From NCBI GenBank assembly GCA_029884455.1, contig JAOUHU010000006.1, positions 1-64,000 of the forward strand: a stretch of 64,000 nt of DNA. The letters run 5' to 3'. Position numbers and translations under genes: made by a program. Source of the DNA: Gammaproteobacteria bacterium. GTDB taxonomy: Bacteria > Pseudomonadota > Gammaproteobacteria > Steroidobacterales > Woeseiaceae. Each line of letters begins with the position of its first letter. The stretch's first letter is position 1. Below, one piece after another: positions 149-16,732 of the stretch. Below the pieces are notes generated by a model. That model was given only the letters and a program-made list of their open reading frames with translations, was not told where the DNA came from and did no database searches.

Positions 149-223
149 GGGCGATTAGCTCAGGGGTAGAGCGCCACGTTGACATCGTGGAGGTCGGTGG
201 TTCGAAACCACCATCGCCCACCA
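149..223 (+). tRNA. tRNA-Val (anticodon GAC)
   Basis: A full cloverleaf can be drawn. The acceptor GGGCGAT (149-155) pairs with ATCGCCC (213-219), followed by discriminator A and an encoded CCA. The anticodon stem CCACG/CGTGG encloses loop TTGACAT, so the anticodon is GAC and reads valine GUC/GUU codons. The T-arm contains GGTTCGAAACC. The length is 75 nt. It lies just upstream of infC. Confidence 0.95.
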
Positions 224-298
224 GTTCCAGTGCCAGATCATTGTCGTGCAGTGGCAACGAGAGTCCTGATTTTTTTGGGAAAACAGGCGCTTTGGCAG

Positions 299-327
299 TT
301 GTTTCTTGGTAATCGGCTATATAGAAT
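299..327 (+). promoter_or_regulatory. Candidate sigma70 promoter for infC operon
   Basis: A TTGTTT -35 (299-304) is followed by a 17-bp spacer and a TAGAAT -10 (322-327), about 80 bp before the infC start and downstream of tRNA-Val. Hexamer matches are moderate. The position is right for the infC-rpmI-rplT-pheST-ihfA operon, but this is inference from sequence only. The rest of 224-405 shows no other clear feature. Confidence 0.4.
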
Positions 328-405
328 CGCGTTCCCGCACCTACCGCGGCGTCAGCGTGCGCCCGAAACTGGTGTGGACTTGGTTTTTTAGCGGAGGATC
401 CGGGG

Positions 406-12028: not shown

Positions 12029-12134
12029 ATCGTAGCTTGCGTCGCCAGATGGCATTTCGTCGTTCTGCAAATCGTTGCTAAACTGCTGCAACGGGCAAGC
12101 TCTGGGTAGCCCGCGGAAATCCAAGCGAGGCTAT

Positions 12135-13823
12135 ATGGAAGAAAAAGAACTTCGGCGCTATTCGCGCGTCGTCGTCGATGGTGACGAGCATGCGCCAAGC
12201 CGGGCCATGTTGCGTGCGGTCGGTTTCACCGACGATGATTTCACGCGTCCGCAGATTGGCATAGCCTCCACCTGGAGCATGACGACACCCTGTAACATGC
12301 ACATTCGGGAACTGGCCGAAGAAGCCGCAACAAGCGCCAACGAGGCCGGTGCCAAGGGAGTGGTTTTTAATACGATCACTGTTTCGGACGGCATATCGAT
12401 GGGCACGCCCGGCATGCGCTATTCACTGGTATCGCGAGAAATCATCGCAGACTCCATTGAAGCGGTCGTCGCAGCCGAAGGATTTGACGGTTTGGTGGCA
12501 ATTGGCGGCTGTGACAAGAATATGCCGGCTTGCGTAATGGCGATGGCGCGACTGAACAGACCGGCTGTATTTGTCTATGGCGGCACAATCCGCCCGGGCG
12601 CGCAACGCCGCGACATTGTATCTGTCTTCGAGGCCGTGGGCGCCAGGTCCAGCGGCCGGATTTCCGCTGCCGAGCTACTTGAGGTGGAGCAGACAGCGAT
12701 CCCGGGGCCTGGCGCCTGTGGCGGCATGTACACAGCCAATACCATGGCCTCAGCCATTGAAGCTCTGGGCATGAGCCTCGGCAATAGCTCGGCACAAGAG
12801 GCGGTGTCGGAAGCCAAACTTTCCGATTGCCGCCGGGCAAGTGTGGCGGTGATGCAGCTCCTGAAAAAGGGTATCAAGCCGCTCGATATCATGACGCGCA
12901 AGGCGTTCGAGAACGCGATTTCGGTCGTGATCGCGCTCGGTGGCTCGACCAATGCGGTTCTGCACCTGATTGCCATGGCCCGTGAAGCCGGGGTGCCGCT
13001 GTCGTTGAACGACTTCACTACGATCGGTGCCCGGGTGCCCGTACTGGCAGACCTGAAACCTAGTGGCAAGTACCTGATGTCCGAAATAATTGCGATCGGT
13101 GGAATTCAGCCGCTGATGAAACGCATGCTGGACGCGGGATTGTTGCACGGCGACTGTATGACGGTCTCGGGCGCGACGATGGCGGAAAACCTGGCGGCGG
13201 TCAAAGATTATCCTGAAGGACAGGATATCGTGCGCGGTTTTGACAGGCCGATCAAAGCGGACAGTCATCTCTCGATCCTTTACGGAAACGTTGCTCCCGA
13301 CGGCGCGGTGGCGAAGATTACAGGCAAGGAAGGGTTGAAGTTCAGCGGTCCGGCCCGTTGTTTCGATTCCGAGGAAGCGGCGCTGCAGGCAATTCTTGGT
13401 AATAAGATCGTCGCCGGTGATGTGGTTTTGATTCGTTTTGAAGGACCGAAAGGCGCGCCAGGCATGCGCGAAATGCTGAGTCCGACCGGTGCCATCATGG
13501 GCAAGGGGCTCGGTGCGGACGTTGCTTTGATTACTGATGGGCGTTTTTCCGGTGGCAGCCATGGTTTCGTGGTTGGCCATATTTCACCAGAGGCGGCTGT
13601 TGGCGGACCTATCGCGCTGCTCCAGGACGGGGATATTCTGCATATCGATGCGGAACGCAAGCGGATCGACGTCGAGCTGGATGTCGAAACAATGACATCA
13701 CGGCGCGCCAGCTGGCAGCGACCAGCGTCGTCCGTCCAAGGCGGGGCCCTTGCCAAGTACCGCGCCGCGGTCTCGTCAGCCTCGGATGGCGCCGTTACGA
13801 TTCCTCCTGCCTGGGATCGCTGA
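12135..13823 (+). CDS. ilvD: Dihydroxy-acid dehydratase
   Basis: The penultimate step of Ile/Val synthesis, dehydrating 2,3-dihydroxy acids to 2-oxo acids with an Fe-S cluster. The product is 562 aa. Cluster cysteines are visible in [16 protein letters not shown] and [15 protein letters not shown]; the conserved GRFSGG is near the C-terminus. The ATG at 12135 matches the family N-terminus and has GCGAGG just upstream; an upstream in-frame start at 12075 adds unrelated residues. It is separate from the minus-strand ilvC-leu operon. Confidence 0.96.
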
Positions 13824-13846
13824 CAACATCCATATACAGCAAGTAC

Positions 13847-13875
13847 TTGACGTTTCAGGCAAGGTTCGCTCTACT
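13847..13875 (+). promoter_or_regulatory. Candidate promoter for the lysC-lysA leader
   Basis: A TTGACG -35 (13847-13852, five of six consensus) is followed by a 17-bp spacer and a TCTACT -10 (13870-13875, four of six). A start site six or seven bases downstream falls on the ATG at 13882. It is the best promoter between ilvD and lysC-lysA, and it must lie upstream of the intrinsic terminator at 14028 because only about 28 nt separate that terminator from the gene. Confidence 0.5.
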
Positions 13876-13881
13876 CTGCCG

Positions 13882-14001
13882 ATGAGATTTTTTGCCACCC
13901 ACGTAATGTGCCGACATGTCGACTTGGTCGATATGAAAAAACACAGAAAATATATGGCGCGCCAGAGGTGCGTGGGTGCGAGTGACAATAGTACCGACTA
14001 A
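13882..14001 (+). CDS. Putative leader peptide for lysC-lysA attenuation
   Basis: A 39-codon ORF starting at the predicted transcription start (ATG 13882; a shorter alternative starts at ATG 13933). It contains a Lys-rich stretch MKKHRKY with three AAA codons (13936-13950) and ends at TAA 14001, 26 nt before an intrinsic terminator. CGTGGGT (13971-13977), inside the ORF, can pair with ACCCGCG of the terminator's 5' arm as an antiterminator. This suggests lysine-sensed transcription attenuation. The Lys density is modest, and no ribosome site precedes either start, so this remains inference. Confidence 0.45.
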   Translation: MRFFATHVMCRHVDLVDMKKHRKYMARQRCVGASDNSTD

Positions 14002-14027
14002 TTAATAAAGGACGGACATTGTCATCG

Positions 14028-14061
14028 AACCCGCGAGGAGAATCCTGGCGGGTTTTTTTTT
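14028..14061 (+). terminator. Intrinsic terminator/attenuator upstream of lysC-lysA
   Basis: AACCCGC (14028-14034) pairs with GCGGGTT (14048-14054), followed by a run of nine T residues. It lies only about 30 nt before the lysC-lysA start codon, leaving no room for a downstream promoter, so it must sit in the transcribed leader and act as an attenuator rather than merely terminate ilvD. Confidence 0.8.
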
Positions 14062-14089
14062 GTAACCCAGGAAGGAAGTGTGTCTCACG

Positions 14090-16732
14090 ATGATTAGCAG
14101 CCTAGACGAGGCAGAGTTCGAGCAGGATATCTGTCTGAGTACGGACAACGAGACCGCCGCGTCTCCCTGGGTGGTTCTGAAATTTGGCGGCACCAGCGTC
14201 TCAACGCTTGAGAATTGGCGCACGATTGCGGGGTTGCTGCGCAATCGACTTGACGCCGGCCTAAGGCCTGTTGTCGTACATTCTGCGCTGCGCACCGTGT
14301 CAAACCGGCTTGACGCGATCCTGCGATTGGCGGTAGAGGGCGACCCTGCAGAGGAACTGGGTACGATTCGTCAACAGCACGAAGAGTTAGCGGCGGCCCT
14401 GGGCGTAGACAGCGCCGCTTTGATCGGTCGGGAATTACTGGAACTTGAGCAACTGATTGCCGGCATCCGGCTGGTTCGCGAGGTCAGTGTACGCGTGCGC
14501 GTTCGGGTCATGGCGCTTGGCGAAATCATGGCCACGCGGCTCGGCGCCGAGTACCTGGTCCAGCAGGGCCTGCCGGTGCACTGGGTGGACGCGCGCGAGC
14601 ACCTGACCAGCAATAACAGGGCGGGTCAACAGCGAGCACAGGACTACCTGAGCGCCACCTGCGATTTCGTGCAGGATGAGGCAATGCGAACAGCGTTTGC
14701 CGCCAAAGACGGAATCATCCTGACTCAGGGCTTTATTGCCCGAAACATGCACGGCGAGACTGTGCTCCTGGGGCGCGGTGGATCGGATACCTCCGGCGCG
14801 TACTTTGCTGCTCGTCTACGCGCCCGGCGCCTGGAAATATGGACCGATGTGCCCGGCATGTTCACTGCTGACCCGCGCAAGGTGCCGTCGGCGCGCCTGC
14901 TGATTGCCTTGCACTATGACGAGGCGCAGGAACTGGCCTCCGCCGGCAGTACGGTGCTTCATCCGCGGTGCCTGTCGCCGCTGCGCCGCTGCAATATCCC
15001 CCTGTACATTCGGTGTACAACAGCGCCACAGATTAGCGGTACGGTCGTCTCGTCAATTACCGAGGAAATTGAGCCGCAGGTAAAGGGTATCTGCAGTCGC
15101 GACGGGCTGATGCTGATATCCATGGATACAGTCGGGATGTGGCATGAGGTAGGCTTTCTGGCCCGGGCGTTCGCCATTTTCAGTAATCACCACGTCTCGG
15201 TCGGCCTGGTCTCGACCTCGGAAACCAACGTAACTGTATCAATTGACACTGAGGGTGGCGTCCTTGCGGACCACGTAATCCACGACCTGGTCAGTGATCT
15301 CGAAGCATTATGCCGCGTGCGAGTCATCGCCGATTGTTCGGCTATTAGTCTGGTCGGGCGCAAGATCCGTACTATTTTGCCGCGCCTGGCGCCGGCCCTT
15401 GAGGTGTTCGAAGAAGAAAAAATTCACCTGATGTCACAGGCGGCAAACGACTTGAACCTGAGCTTCGTCGTTGACCGGAACCAGGGGCAGCGATTAGTGA
15501 GAAAATTGCACTCGTCAATTATTCGCAAGTCGGGCGGCAGCCCGGCTTTCGGCCAGAGCTGGGAGTCGTTGTTCACAAGCACAAAGTTAGCTGCCGAAAG
15601 AATCGAGCCCTGGTGGATGCACAAGCGGCAGCAATTGCTGAATCTGGCCGGCCAACAACTGAATGCCTATATCTACGACCGTGACAGCGTTAAGGAAGCG
15701 GCCAATGACTTGCTGAACCTCGAAAATGTAAGTCGCATTCTGTATGCAATGAAGGCGAACGATAACGCCGAATTGCTGCAGACACTCGCGGCCGCACAGG
15801 TCGACTTCGAATGCGTCTCCCCAGGTGAAGTAGAGTGGCTGCAGGCGGCAGTGCCGAAGCTAAGCGTCAAACGCATCCTGTTCACGCCAAATTTTGCACC
15901 GCGCTCTGAGTACGAGTGGGCCTTGCAAAAAGGTCTGCAGGTGACGCTCGATAATCTTTATCCGCTGCAGGCGTGGCCGGAATTGTTTCGCGGGCAGAAG
16001 CTGTTTATTCGCCTCGATCCGGGGCAGGGGCGAGGCCATCATGAGCATGTAAAAACGGCCGGCGTGCACTCCAAATTTGGCGTTCCGCTTTTCGAAGTGG
16101 ATGAACTACTGCGACTCACCAATGCAGTCGGAGCGACGGTCATCGGTATTCATGCACATAGCGGCAGTGGCGTACAGGACCCGGAATCCTGGCGAATTGT
16201 CGCTGGCGTTCTCGCGGAGGTCGCAAAGCGGTTTCCTTCGGTGGCTACGATTGATCTTGGTGGCGGTCTCGGTATTCCAGAGAAGCCGGGCGACAAGGAC
16301 TTCGATTTGGCGCGACTGGACGAGGCACTCGGTGAATTTCGCCAGGCCTACCCGCAGTATGAGTTATGGCTGGAGCCCGGTCGTTACCTGGTTGCTCGCG
16401 CCGGCGTGTTGCTGACACGCGTAACCCAGGTCAAGGGCAAGGGTGACATGCGTTACATCGGTGTCGGTACCGGCATGAATTCACTGATACGCCCTGCGCT
16501 TTACGGTGCTTACCACGAAATCGTCAATTTGAGTCGAGCGCATGAGGCTGCCACGGAAACGGTCACCGTGGTCGGACCCATCTGCGAAACCGGCGACCGA
16601 CTTGGCAGTGATCGGCTGTTGCCACCGTCCCGCGAAAATGATGTCATTCTGATCGCTAATACGGGTGCTTACGGTTACGTTATGCGATCAAATTACAATC
16701 GCCGCGCCGACGCGGTTGAGATCGTCATTTGA
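14090..16732 (+). CDS. Bifunctional aspartokinase / diaminopimelate decarboxylase
   Basis: A natural LysC-LysA fusion of 880 aa carrying the first and last steps of lysine synthesis. The N-terminal half has the aspartokinase KFGGTS motif (from K31), DTSGAYFAARLRA and ACT-like regulatory segments (about 300-450). The C-terminal half is the decarboxylase: PLP lysine in YAMKAND (K555), HAHSGSG, DLGGGLG and CETGDRLG. ATG 14090 is preferred; a GTG at 14078 abuts the AGGAAGGAA ribosome site and cannot use it. Such fusions are known in Xanthomonas and Xylella. Lysine feedback on the kinase is likely but not shown. Confidence 0.93.
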   Translation: MISSLDEAEFEQDICLSTDNETAASPWVVLKFGGTSVSTLENWRTIAGLLRNRLDAGLRPVVVHSALRTVSNRLDAILRLAVEGDPAEELGTIRQQHEELAAALGVDSAALIGRELLELEQLIAGIRLVREVSVRVRVRVMALGEIMATRLGAEYLVQQGLPVHWVDAREHLTSNNRAGQQRAQDYLSATCDFVQDEAMRTAFAAKDGIILTQGFIARNMHGETVLLGRGGSDTSGAYFAARLRARRLEIWTDVPGMFTADPRKVPSARLLIALHYDEAQELASAGSTVLHPRCLSPLRRCNIPLYIRCTTAPQISGTVVSSITEEIEPQVKGICSRDGLMLISMDTVGMWHEVGFLARAFAIFSNHHVSVGLVSTSETNVTVSIDTEGGVLADHVIHDLVSDLEALCRVRVIADCSAISLVGRKIRTILPRLAPALEVFEEEKIHLMSQAANDLNLSFVVDRNQGQRLVRKLHSSIIRKSGGSPAFGQSWESLFTSTKLAAERIEPWWMHKRQQLLNLAGQQLNAYIYDRDSVKEAANDLLNLENVSRILYAMKANDNAELLQTLAAAQVDFECVSPGEVEWLQAAVPKLSVKRILFTPNFAPRSEYEWALQKGLQVTLDNLYPLQAWPELFRGQKLFIRLDPGQGRGHHEHVKTAGVHSKFGVPLFEVDELLRLTNAVGATVIGIHAHSGSGVQDPESWRIVAGVLAEVAKRFPSVATIDLGGGLGIPEKPGDKDFDLARLDEALGEFRQAYPQYELWLEPGRYLVARAGVLLTRVTQVKGKGDMRYIGVGTGMNSLIRPALYGAYHEIVNLSRAHEAATETVTVVGPICETGDRLGSDRLLPPSRENDVILIANTGAYGYVMRSNYNRRADAVEIVI

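Follow-up and report, generated by a model that had tools for sequence, protein, structure and literature searches.

The lysC-lysA fusion gene of this Woeseiaceae bacterium is preceded by a conserved element of about 180 nt that runs from promoter-like boxes through a putative transcription start at 13882 and four helices to an intrinsic terminator. We read it as an attenuator RNA that has its own promoter, a core resembling a sensor, and an upstream open reading frame (ORF) that is leaderless, and give this reading roughly even chances. Positions refer to the window, i.e., the whole stretch of 64,000 nt that was analysed, and the parts are as follows:

12075 to 13823, plus strand: ilvD (dihydroxy-acid dehydratase), the upstream neighbour; TIGR00110, 715 bits; the start given here comes from the ORF tool and is provisional
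13847 to 13852, plus strand: -35-like box TTGACG; TTGA invariant and TTGAC present in 33 of 35 same-genus leaders
13870 to 13875, plus strand: -10-like box TCTACT (consensus about TYTACT) after a 17-nt spacer, conserved across the 35 leaders
13882 to 14001, plus strand: putative leaderless upstream ORF of 39 codons plus TAA, with its ATG at the inferred +1, MRFFATHVMCRHVDLVDMKKHRKYMARQRCVGASDNSTD
13896 to 13905, plus strand: 5' strand of helix P1 (strand 1), CACCCACGTA, pairing with 13969-13978; 6 of 10 pairs show compensatory change
13908 to 13913, plus strand: 5' strand of helix P2, GTGCCG, with its partner at 13955-13960; conserved in 68 copies
13915 to 13935, plus strand: hairpin P3, variable in sequence, with compensatory change in 7 of 7 pairs
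13936 to 13953, plus strand: A-rich joining segment, its A run retained also in copies that lack the frame
13954 to 13968, plus strand: near-invariant core ATGGCGCGCCAGAGG, i.e., the P2 3' strand and the unpaired GCCAGAGG, defined by conservation
13969 to 13978, plus strand: 3' strand of P1 (strand 2), TGCGTGGGTG, also the alternative partner of the terminator arm
13983 to 14024, plus strand: hairpin P4; 12 of 14 pairs show compensatory change, over three stem parts
14029 to 14061, plus strand: intrinsic terminator formed by strands 3 and 4 plus the T run; the outer stem and the T run hardly vary
14090 to 16732, plus strand: lysC-lysA fusion gene (aspartokinase / diaminopimelate decarboxylase), assigned by NF006515 and Pfam domains

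The locus and the boundaries of the element

The fusion gene scores 1188 bits against NF006515, the model for the bifunctional aspartokinase/diaminopimelate decarboxylase (cut-off 802), and the protein contains the Pfam domains AA_kinase, ACT_9, Orn_Arg_deC_N and Orn_DAP_Arg_deC. We take its start to be the ATG at 14090, the first start given by the ORF tool being a GTG at 14078. With ilvD ending at 13823, 266 nt separate the two genes. An earlier, sequence-only reading had placed a terminator shortly before the start codon, and this is borne out: the stem ACCCGC-G-AGGA...TCCT-G-GCGGGT lies at 14029-14053, the T run reaches 14061, the gap to the ATG is 28 nt, and the outer part of the stem hardly varies, if at all, across 35 genomes. 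A mechanical terminator scan has no entry for 14029-14061, which we think is explained by the G.G mismatch in the stem. In the aligned upstream regions, judged by eye, conservation ends with the T run and does not resume before the gene, suggesting that the gene is probably transcribed through the terminator region.

An alignment of the upstream regions of 35 same-genus genomes has a conserved block that begins at the -35-like box and ends with the T run, and in nearly all of them the spacing between the -35 box and the GGCGCG of the core is constant. The ACT of the -10-like box is invariant and its first T is present in 34 of the 35. A mechanical sigma-70 scan returned no promoter at 13847-13875; we think that this is due to the -10-like box having no A at position 2. 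The sequence-only reading did not include these boxes, P4, the start codon at the inferred +1 or CCCACG (13898-13903), the 5' partner in P1.

The element matches no family in Rfam. Rfam 15 has no match on it at E values up to 10 in the window, and none at E values up to 5 on the element strand of 17 relative loci. The sequence-only reading had named the lysine riboswitch as the element to search for; its model (RF00168) has no match in the window and, with strict filters, none in 61 genomes of the family, while a control match was obtained in Escherichia coli. The candidate identity of 6S RNA was rejected, since 6S RNA sits elsewhere in 7 of 8 genomes. A search of the literature on Woeseia together with riboswitches or small RNAs found no on-topic description of the element; the main text of PMC2965389 does not mention lysA, lysC or lysine, and PMC7451513 mentions neither lysine nor small RNA. 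Going by this search and by Rfam, the element appears to be undescribed.

Covariation around a near-invariant core

Comparison of the copies establishes the RNA, its helices, their covariation and the complementary strands. Folding of the window leader gives z = -2.9, with 2 of 200 shuffles equally good, and RNAalifold on an alignment that was not fitted to any structure predicts 45 pairs, 16 of them with compensatory change. The alignment of 68 copies has compensatory change at 28 of 37 pairs, and 93.8% of its cells are paired, versus 25-46% for slid controls. None of 500 shuffles attains any of five measures on this alignment, a result that overstates the certainty because the alignment was fitted to the structure and the copies are related.

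P2 and the core hardly vary. The GUGCC/GGCGC pairing of P2 is nearly invariant, with one U-G pair present in 68 of 68 copies, and the GGCGCG and CAGAGG of the core are invariant in 35 of 35 same-genus leaders and nearly so in the 68 copies. P3 is more flexible, being absent in L105 and carrying a 12-nt insertion in L109.

These data bear on one alternative, namely that the stem is a plain ilvD terminator or a chance fold with no regulatory role. ilvD does end about 205 nt 5' of the terminator on the same strand, but conserved promoter-like boxes lie between ilvD and the RNA, covariation is seen in every helix, and the element is present in 3 genomes (G211, G219, and G234) with no ilvD seen close upstream. 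A chance fold is excluded by the covariation in the 68 copies, and we regard the alternative as a whole as barely credible.

A reading frame from the putative first nucleotide

The sequence-only reading had pointed to an upstream frame encoding KKHRK, and such a frame is indeed open from 13750 to 14001. Within it, the predicted ORF starts at the inferred +1. In most copies, a start codon stands at the seventh nucleotide after the -10-like box; copies with a start codon there are stop-free up to the core, and in framed copies the stop falls nearly always at the same P4 position or one codon later, with TAG, TAA, and TGA all used. The frame is preserved despite the 12-nt insertion in L109 and a 3-nt deletion in L100 and L154. 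About a dozen copies have no frame, and the start-less copies with in-frame stops or shifts are L091, L094, L096-L098, L101-L105, L114, and L115. The coupling of start and frame has exceptions, i.e., L117, which has a TTG and a 1-nt shift, and L016, L026, and L029, which are start-less yet stop-free upstream of the core.

In 61 ungapped framed leaders, there are no stops in frame, compared with 174 and 59 in the other two frames. When columns change independently in a simulation on the tree, in-frame stops average 9.6 and 5 of 1,000 runs have none; an earlier simulation with pseudocounts had no stop-free run in 150. Because base pairing is left out of the simulation and the third frame comes out with too few stops (35 versus 59 seen), we take the openness of the frame as moderate support only. 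At that strength, it suggests that selection has kept the frame from +1 to the stop in P4 and that ribosomes start, or once started, at the first nucleotide of the RNA; translation of the upstream ORF probably matters.

Selection does not appear to act on the peptide sequence itself. On the tree of the 61 framed leaders, parsimony assigns 224, 270, and 192 changes to codon positions 1, 2, and 3, respectively, and the third position is not the most variable in the 35 same-genus leaders either. A conserved small protein was rejected on these grounds, the codon positions (with third positions varying least in the 61 leaders) giving no sign of selection at the amino-acid level.

Competing pairings and the proposed switch

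Strand 2 is complementary to both strand 1 and the terminator arm, so that 3 competing pairings are possible (1:2, 2:3, and 3:4). The pairing claimed by the sequence-only reading is present: CGTGGGT (13971-13977) and ACCCGCG (14029-14035) form 7 pairs, one of them G-U, with a duplex energy of -12.5 kcal/mol. In folding models, mutually exclusive antiterminator and terminator structures are predicted as a potential of the leader, against controls that are weak. For transcripts ending before the terminator 3' arm, the free-energy difference between P1 and the antiterminator averages -0.1 kcal/mol (sd 2.1) over 76 leaders and lies within 3 kcal/mol in 66 of them, each structure being worth about -3.5 kcal/mol relative to neither; the window leader in this state prefers the antiterminator (0.98). 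With the terminator included, folds lacking the antiterminator are favoured over folds lacking P1, on average by 4.0 kcal/mol and in the window by 6.6 kcal/mol. The balance before the 3' arm is a weak test of a switch: an exchange of arms among leaders raises the spread from 2.09 to no more than 2.37, and the mean drops only to -1.2 once the arm is scrambled. Matched arms pair 0.3 kcal/mol better than permuted ones (0 of 500 permutations), the leaders being related.

Two candidate conclusions were dropped along the way. One, from duplex energies, was that P1 always wins, which did not survive the ensemble calculations; the other was loss of the antiterminator in L091, where a shifted register still gives -11.5 kcal/mol.

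We propose the following switch. Structured RNA made from the promoter at 13847-13875 would choose between termination at 14029-14061 and read-through. With P1 (strands 1 and 2) and the core folded, the terminator would form; with P1 blocked, strand 2, P4 and the terminator 5' arm would make up an antiterminator and lysC-lysA would be transcribed. We think that the core responds to a signal related to lysine or diaminopimelate. For most lineages, we picture a second input from ribosomes that translate the leaderless ORF and would promote the antiterminator early in the frame and the terminator near its end. The terminated RNA of about 180 nt may additionally be active in trans.

Modelled ribosomes, i.e., footprints masked in the folding of the 61 framed leaders, give antiterminator probabilities of 0.84-0.93 at codons 2-12, 0.35-0.66 at codons 13-25, 0.60 and 0.76 at codons 26 and 27, and at most 0.17 at codons 28-39, compared with 0.57 for ribosome-free RNA. 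A modelled ribosome at the lysine codons yields 0.35-0.59, about the same as no ribosome.

Lysine codons, the frame and the core as possible signals

In a classical lysine leader-peptide attenuator, ribosomes short of Lys-tRNA would stall at the lysine codons of KKHRK while strand 2 pairs with the terminator arm. The window codons of this segment are AAA AAA CAC AGA AAA, and 58 of the 61 framed leaders have at least one lysine codon in codons 18-24; start, frame, and stop are retained in most copies, and a relocated leader in genome G282 (see below) encodes EKKFGKRK. However, the KKHRK codons (13936-13950) fall inside the A-rich joining segment, and in codons 18-24 the 61 framed copies have 1.84 lysine codons per copy in frame versus 0.92 and 1.54 in the other frames, with 1.25 in the same register of 8 frame-less copies. 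Because the A-rich segment is kept in frame-less copies, it accounts for most of the lysine codons, and 3 framed copies have none; no conserved cluster of lysine control codons emerges from the 61 framed and 8 frame-less copies. The lysine codons also lie between strands 1 and 2, where masking makes little difference in the model, and the 8 copies of genus g25 have lost the frame and still precede a lone lysA. The lysine-codon reading is thus weak, and we consider a classical attenuator quite unlikely. What stands of the lysine attenuator first proposed is the terminated leader, the competing pairings, the lack of a lysine riboswitch match, and a start, frame, and stop conserved in most relatives; lysine codons as the signal do not stand.

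The persistence of the core where the frame is lost makes the core look like the sensor and the frame like a second input. One could go further and propose a pure riboswitch of a novel class that binds lysine or a metabolite close to it, with the frame as a bystander. The near-invariant core, the invariant U-G pair of P2, the A-rich joint, and P1 as a switching helix would all suit such a riboswitch, as would the frame-less copies before lysA, which retain core, P1, and terminator, and the lack of canonical lysine riboswitch matches in the 61 family genomes. Against this, a single copy was found per genome under strict filters, so that no second pathway gene carries the element, the openness of the frame is apparently selected in most lineages, and the lysC-lysA of G282 manages without the core. 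We judge a pure riboswitch to be very unlikely, and keep to an attenuator in which core and frame would both act.

Gene context, orphan copies and a possible role in trans

Among 85 genomes classified by what lies downstream of the element, 67 have the fusion gene, 10 a lone lysA, and 7 neither, and one has a deleted leader. The element thus stands 5' of lysA or the fusion in 77 of 84 undeleted copies, with the terminator in between, which makes a cis-acting attenuator leader the simplest account.

Several of these loci deserve separate mention. The lone lysA occurs behind the RNA in 2 genera of the family (L094-L098, L101, L102, L104, L105, and L155) and shares 59-65% identity with the C-terminal half of the fusion, indicating that the fusion arose or was lost within the family. 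The deleted leader (L008, genome G009), which precedes lysC-lysA, lacks an internal stretch that reaches from the A-rich segment to the terminator 3' arm; it is either a natural mutant without the terminator stem or an assembly error (the genome has 9% contamination). In L076 (G184), the fusion gene is split at about 2440-2475 into 2 overlapping pieces, residues 1-266 and 265-495, because of a frame shift or else a misassembly.

In 7 genomes, the RNA persists with no lysA next to it, so that a role in trans is possible. In 4 of them (G013, G016, G247, and G288), later genes of the window's gene order follow the element in line, as seen by alignment for G247 and G288 and by eye for G013 and G016; the gene behind is either an M1 peptidase gene (Pfam) or a putative glutathione-transferase-like gene. 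In the other 3 (G242, G260, and G282), no same-strand gene was seen behind the element, only opposite frames. A SAM riboswitch (RF00162, 79 bits; L110:95-222, minus strand) is found together with one of the orphan copies on a stretch of 2.1 kb.

Genome G282 has its fusion gene on another contig, behind a second leader that the covariance model missed and an nhmmer profile found (32.6 bits, E value 1.3e-11 on 1.2 kb):

L130 (G282:C97:16800-18000), about 180 to 375, minus strand: diverged second leader copy before the relocated lysC-lysA

This leader has the promoter boxes, an ATG at the inferred +1, a lysine-rich frame of 32 codons (MDMSGSRIATGEKKFGKRKMHRIRAGAHGRRI) and the terminator, with the core absent, whereas the copy behind ilvD has the core and P1 and no frame. 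It looks like a division of labour, with core and ORF split between 2 copies, in one draft genome that is 82% complete.

The orphans raise the alternative of an autonomous small RNA gene, i.e., a stable trans-acting RNA, possibly a small leaderless mRNA as well, with lysA or lysC-lysA read by leak-through. This would fit the retention of the RNA in the 7 genomes, which fall in 5 or 6 places of the ilvD tree (shown without support values), the 3 copies with no visible same-strand gene behind, the strong terminator of its own, and the apparent split in G282. It would also fit L091, in which P1 is kept through 3 double changes although lysC-lysA is on another contig. However, lysA or the fusion still follows the RNA in 77 of the 84 undeleted copies, no conserved stretch follows the T run, the gene probably being read through, the antiterminator option is preserved, in 7 orphan copies too, and no target is known. 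We therefore regard an autonomous small RNA gene as doubtful, and the attenuator leader, perhaps with an added activity in trans, as the better description.

The most far-reaching version of this description would be a new, family-specific class of RNA with 3 roles in 180 nt: a sensor core for lysine or a closely related metabolite, replacing the lysine riboswitch, a leaderless frame of 39 codons as ribosome input, and a trans-acting RNA that survives the loss of lysA, with core and frame split in G282. In this full form, we think it unlikely.

Distribution

The fusion protein was compared across 60 genomes, the window's own included; 58 have a match, which in 41 of the 60 genomes covers nearly the whole fusion and in some others consists of pieces at contig ends. 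A near relative, an uncultured Woeseiaceae bacterium (L034), is 73% identical in this protein. The element itself was followed with a covariance model built from 35 leaders. In 296 sampled genomes of the order, it matches 74, once each and all in the window's family, down to an E value of 2e-8; these comprise 59 same-genus genomes and 15 from 7 other genera. The model is silent in 4 same-genus genomes and in 12 genomes of other family genera. The element is thus present in 8 of the 12 sampled genera of the family and not matched in 4, and a second covariance model adds 3 further family genomes. Counting per genome, it occurs once in 66 of 73 same-genus genomes, and in 30 of the 31 good ones.

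Outside the family there is no convincing match: in a class sample of 369 genomes, the best E value is 0.017, two same-genus genomes aside, and 22 lysA or lysC-lysA neighbourhoods, mostly from other genera and families, give 3 matches, all within the family. In family genera without the element, lysA or lysC-lysA follows closely behind ilvD in G118, G130, G204, and G290 (by eye). The same close arrangement without the leader, again by eye, was observed at L153, L156-L158, and L041-L044, from element-less family genera and other families of the order. As a separate observation, several same-genus genomes (e.g., G005, G013, G014, G015, and G022) have a second, distant lysA (about 32-34% identity), either in addition to the fusion or in its place.

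Woeseiales are described as widespread in marine sediments (PMC7082342). For this family, in which the usual lysine riboswitch was not found in the 61 genomes searched, the element offers a test case for the control of lysine synthesis, and more generally for attenuators with a frame from the first nucleotide and for a leader RNA that outlives its gene.

Comparison with known systems

The his, trp, thr, ilv, and leu attenuators of Proteobacteria combine a leader ORF with 1:2, 2:3, and 3:4 pairing. The element resembles such ribosome-mediated attenuators in both respects. It differs in that its start codon lies at the inferred +1, its core outlasts the ORF, and no conserved run of control codons for the product amino acid is apparent.

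With the lysine riboswitch (L box, RF00168), the element shares its position before a lysine gene and, presumably, the control of lysine genes. The conserved letters and helices of the L box differ from those of the element, and RF00168 has no match in the window or in the 61 family genomes. In Gammaproteobacteria, the lysine riboswitch is placed mainly before lysC (PMC5584792).

A further likeness is to the trp attenuator RNA rnTrpL of Sinorhizobium meliloti: as described in PMC7298713, this RNA begins directly with the ATG of its small ORF and, once terminated, acts in trans, as does its peptide peTrpL. Both have a leaderless ORF at the 5' end (a putative one in the element) and attenuation, here proposed, before a biosynthetic gene. 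On that description, rnTrpL encodes a 14-aa peptide with Trp codons as the signal (PMC7298713), whereas the element has 39 codons without demonstrated control codons and a near-invariant core. The likeness is one of description and we do not claim homology; as a leaderless and trans-acting RNA, rnTrpL is a precedent for the trans role that the lysC-lysA leader may possibly have.
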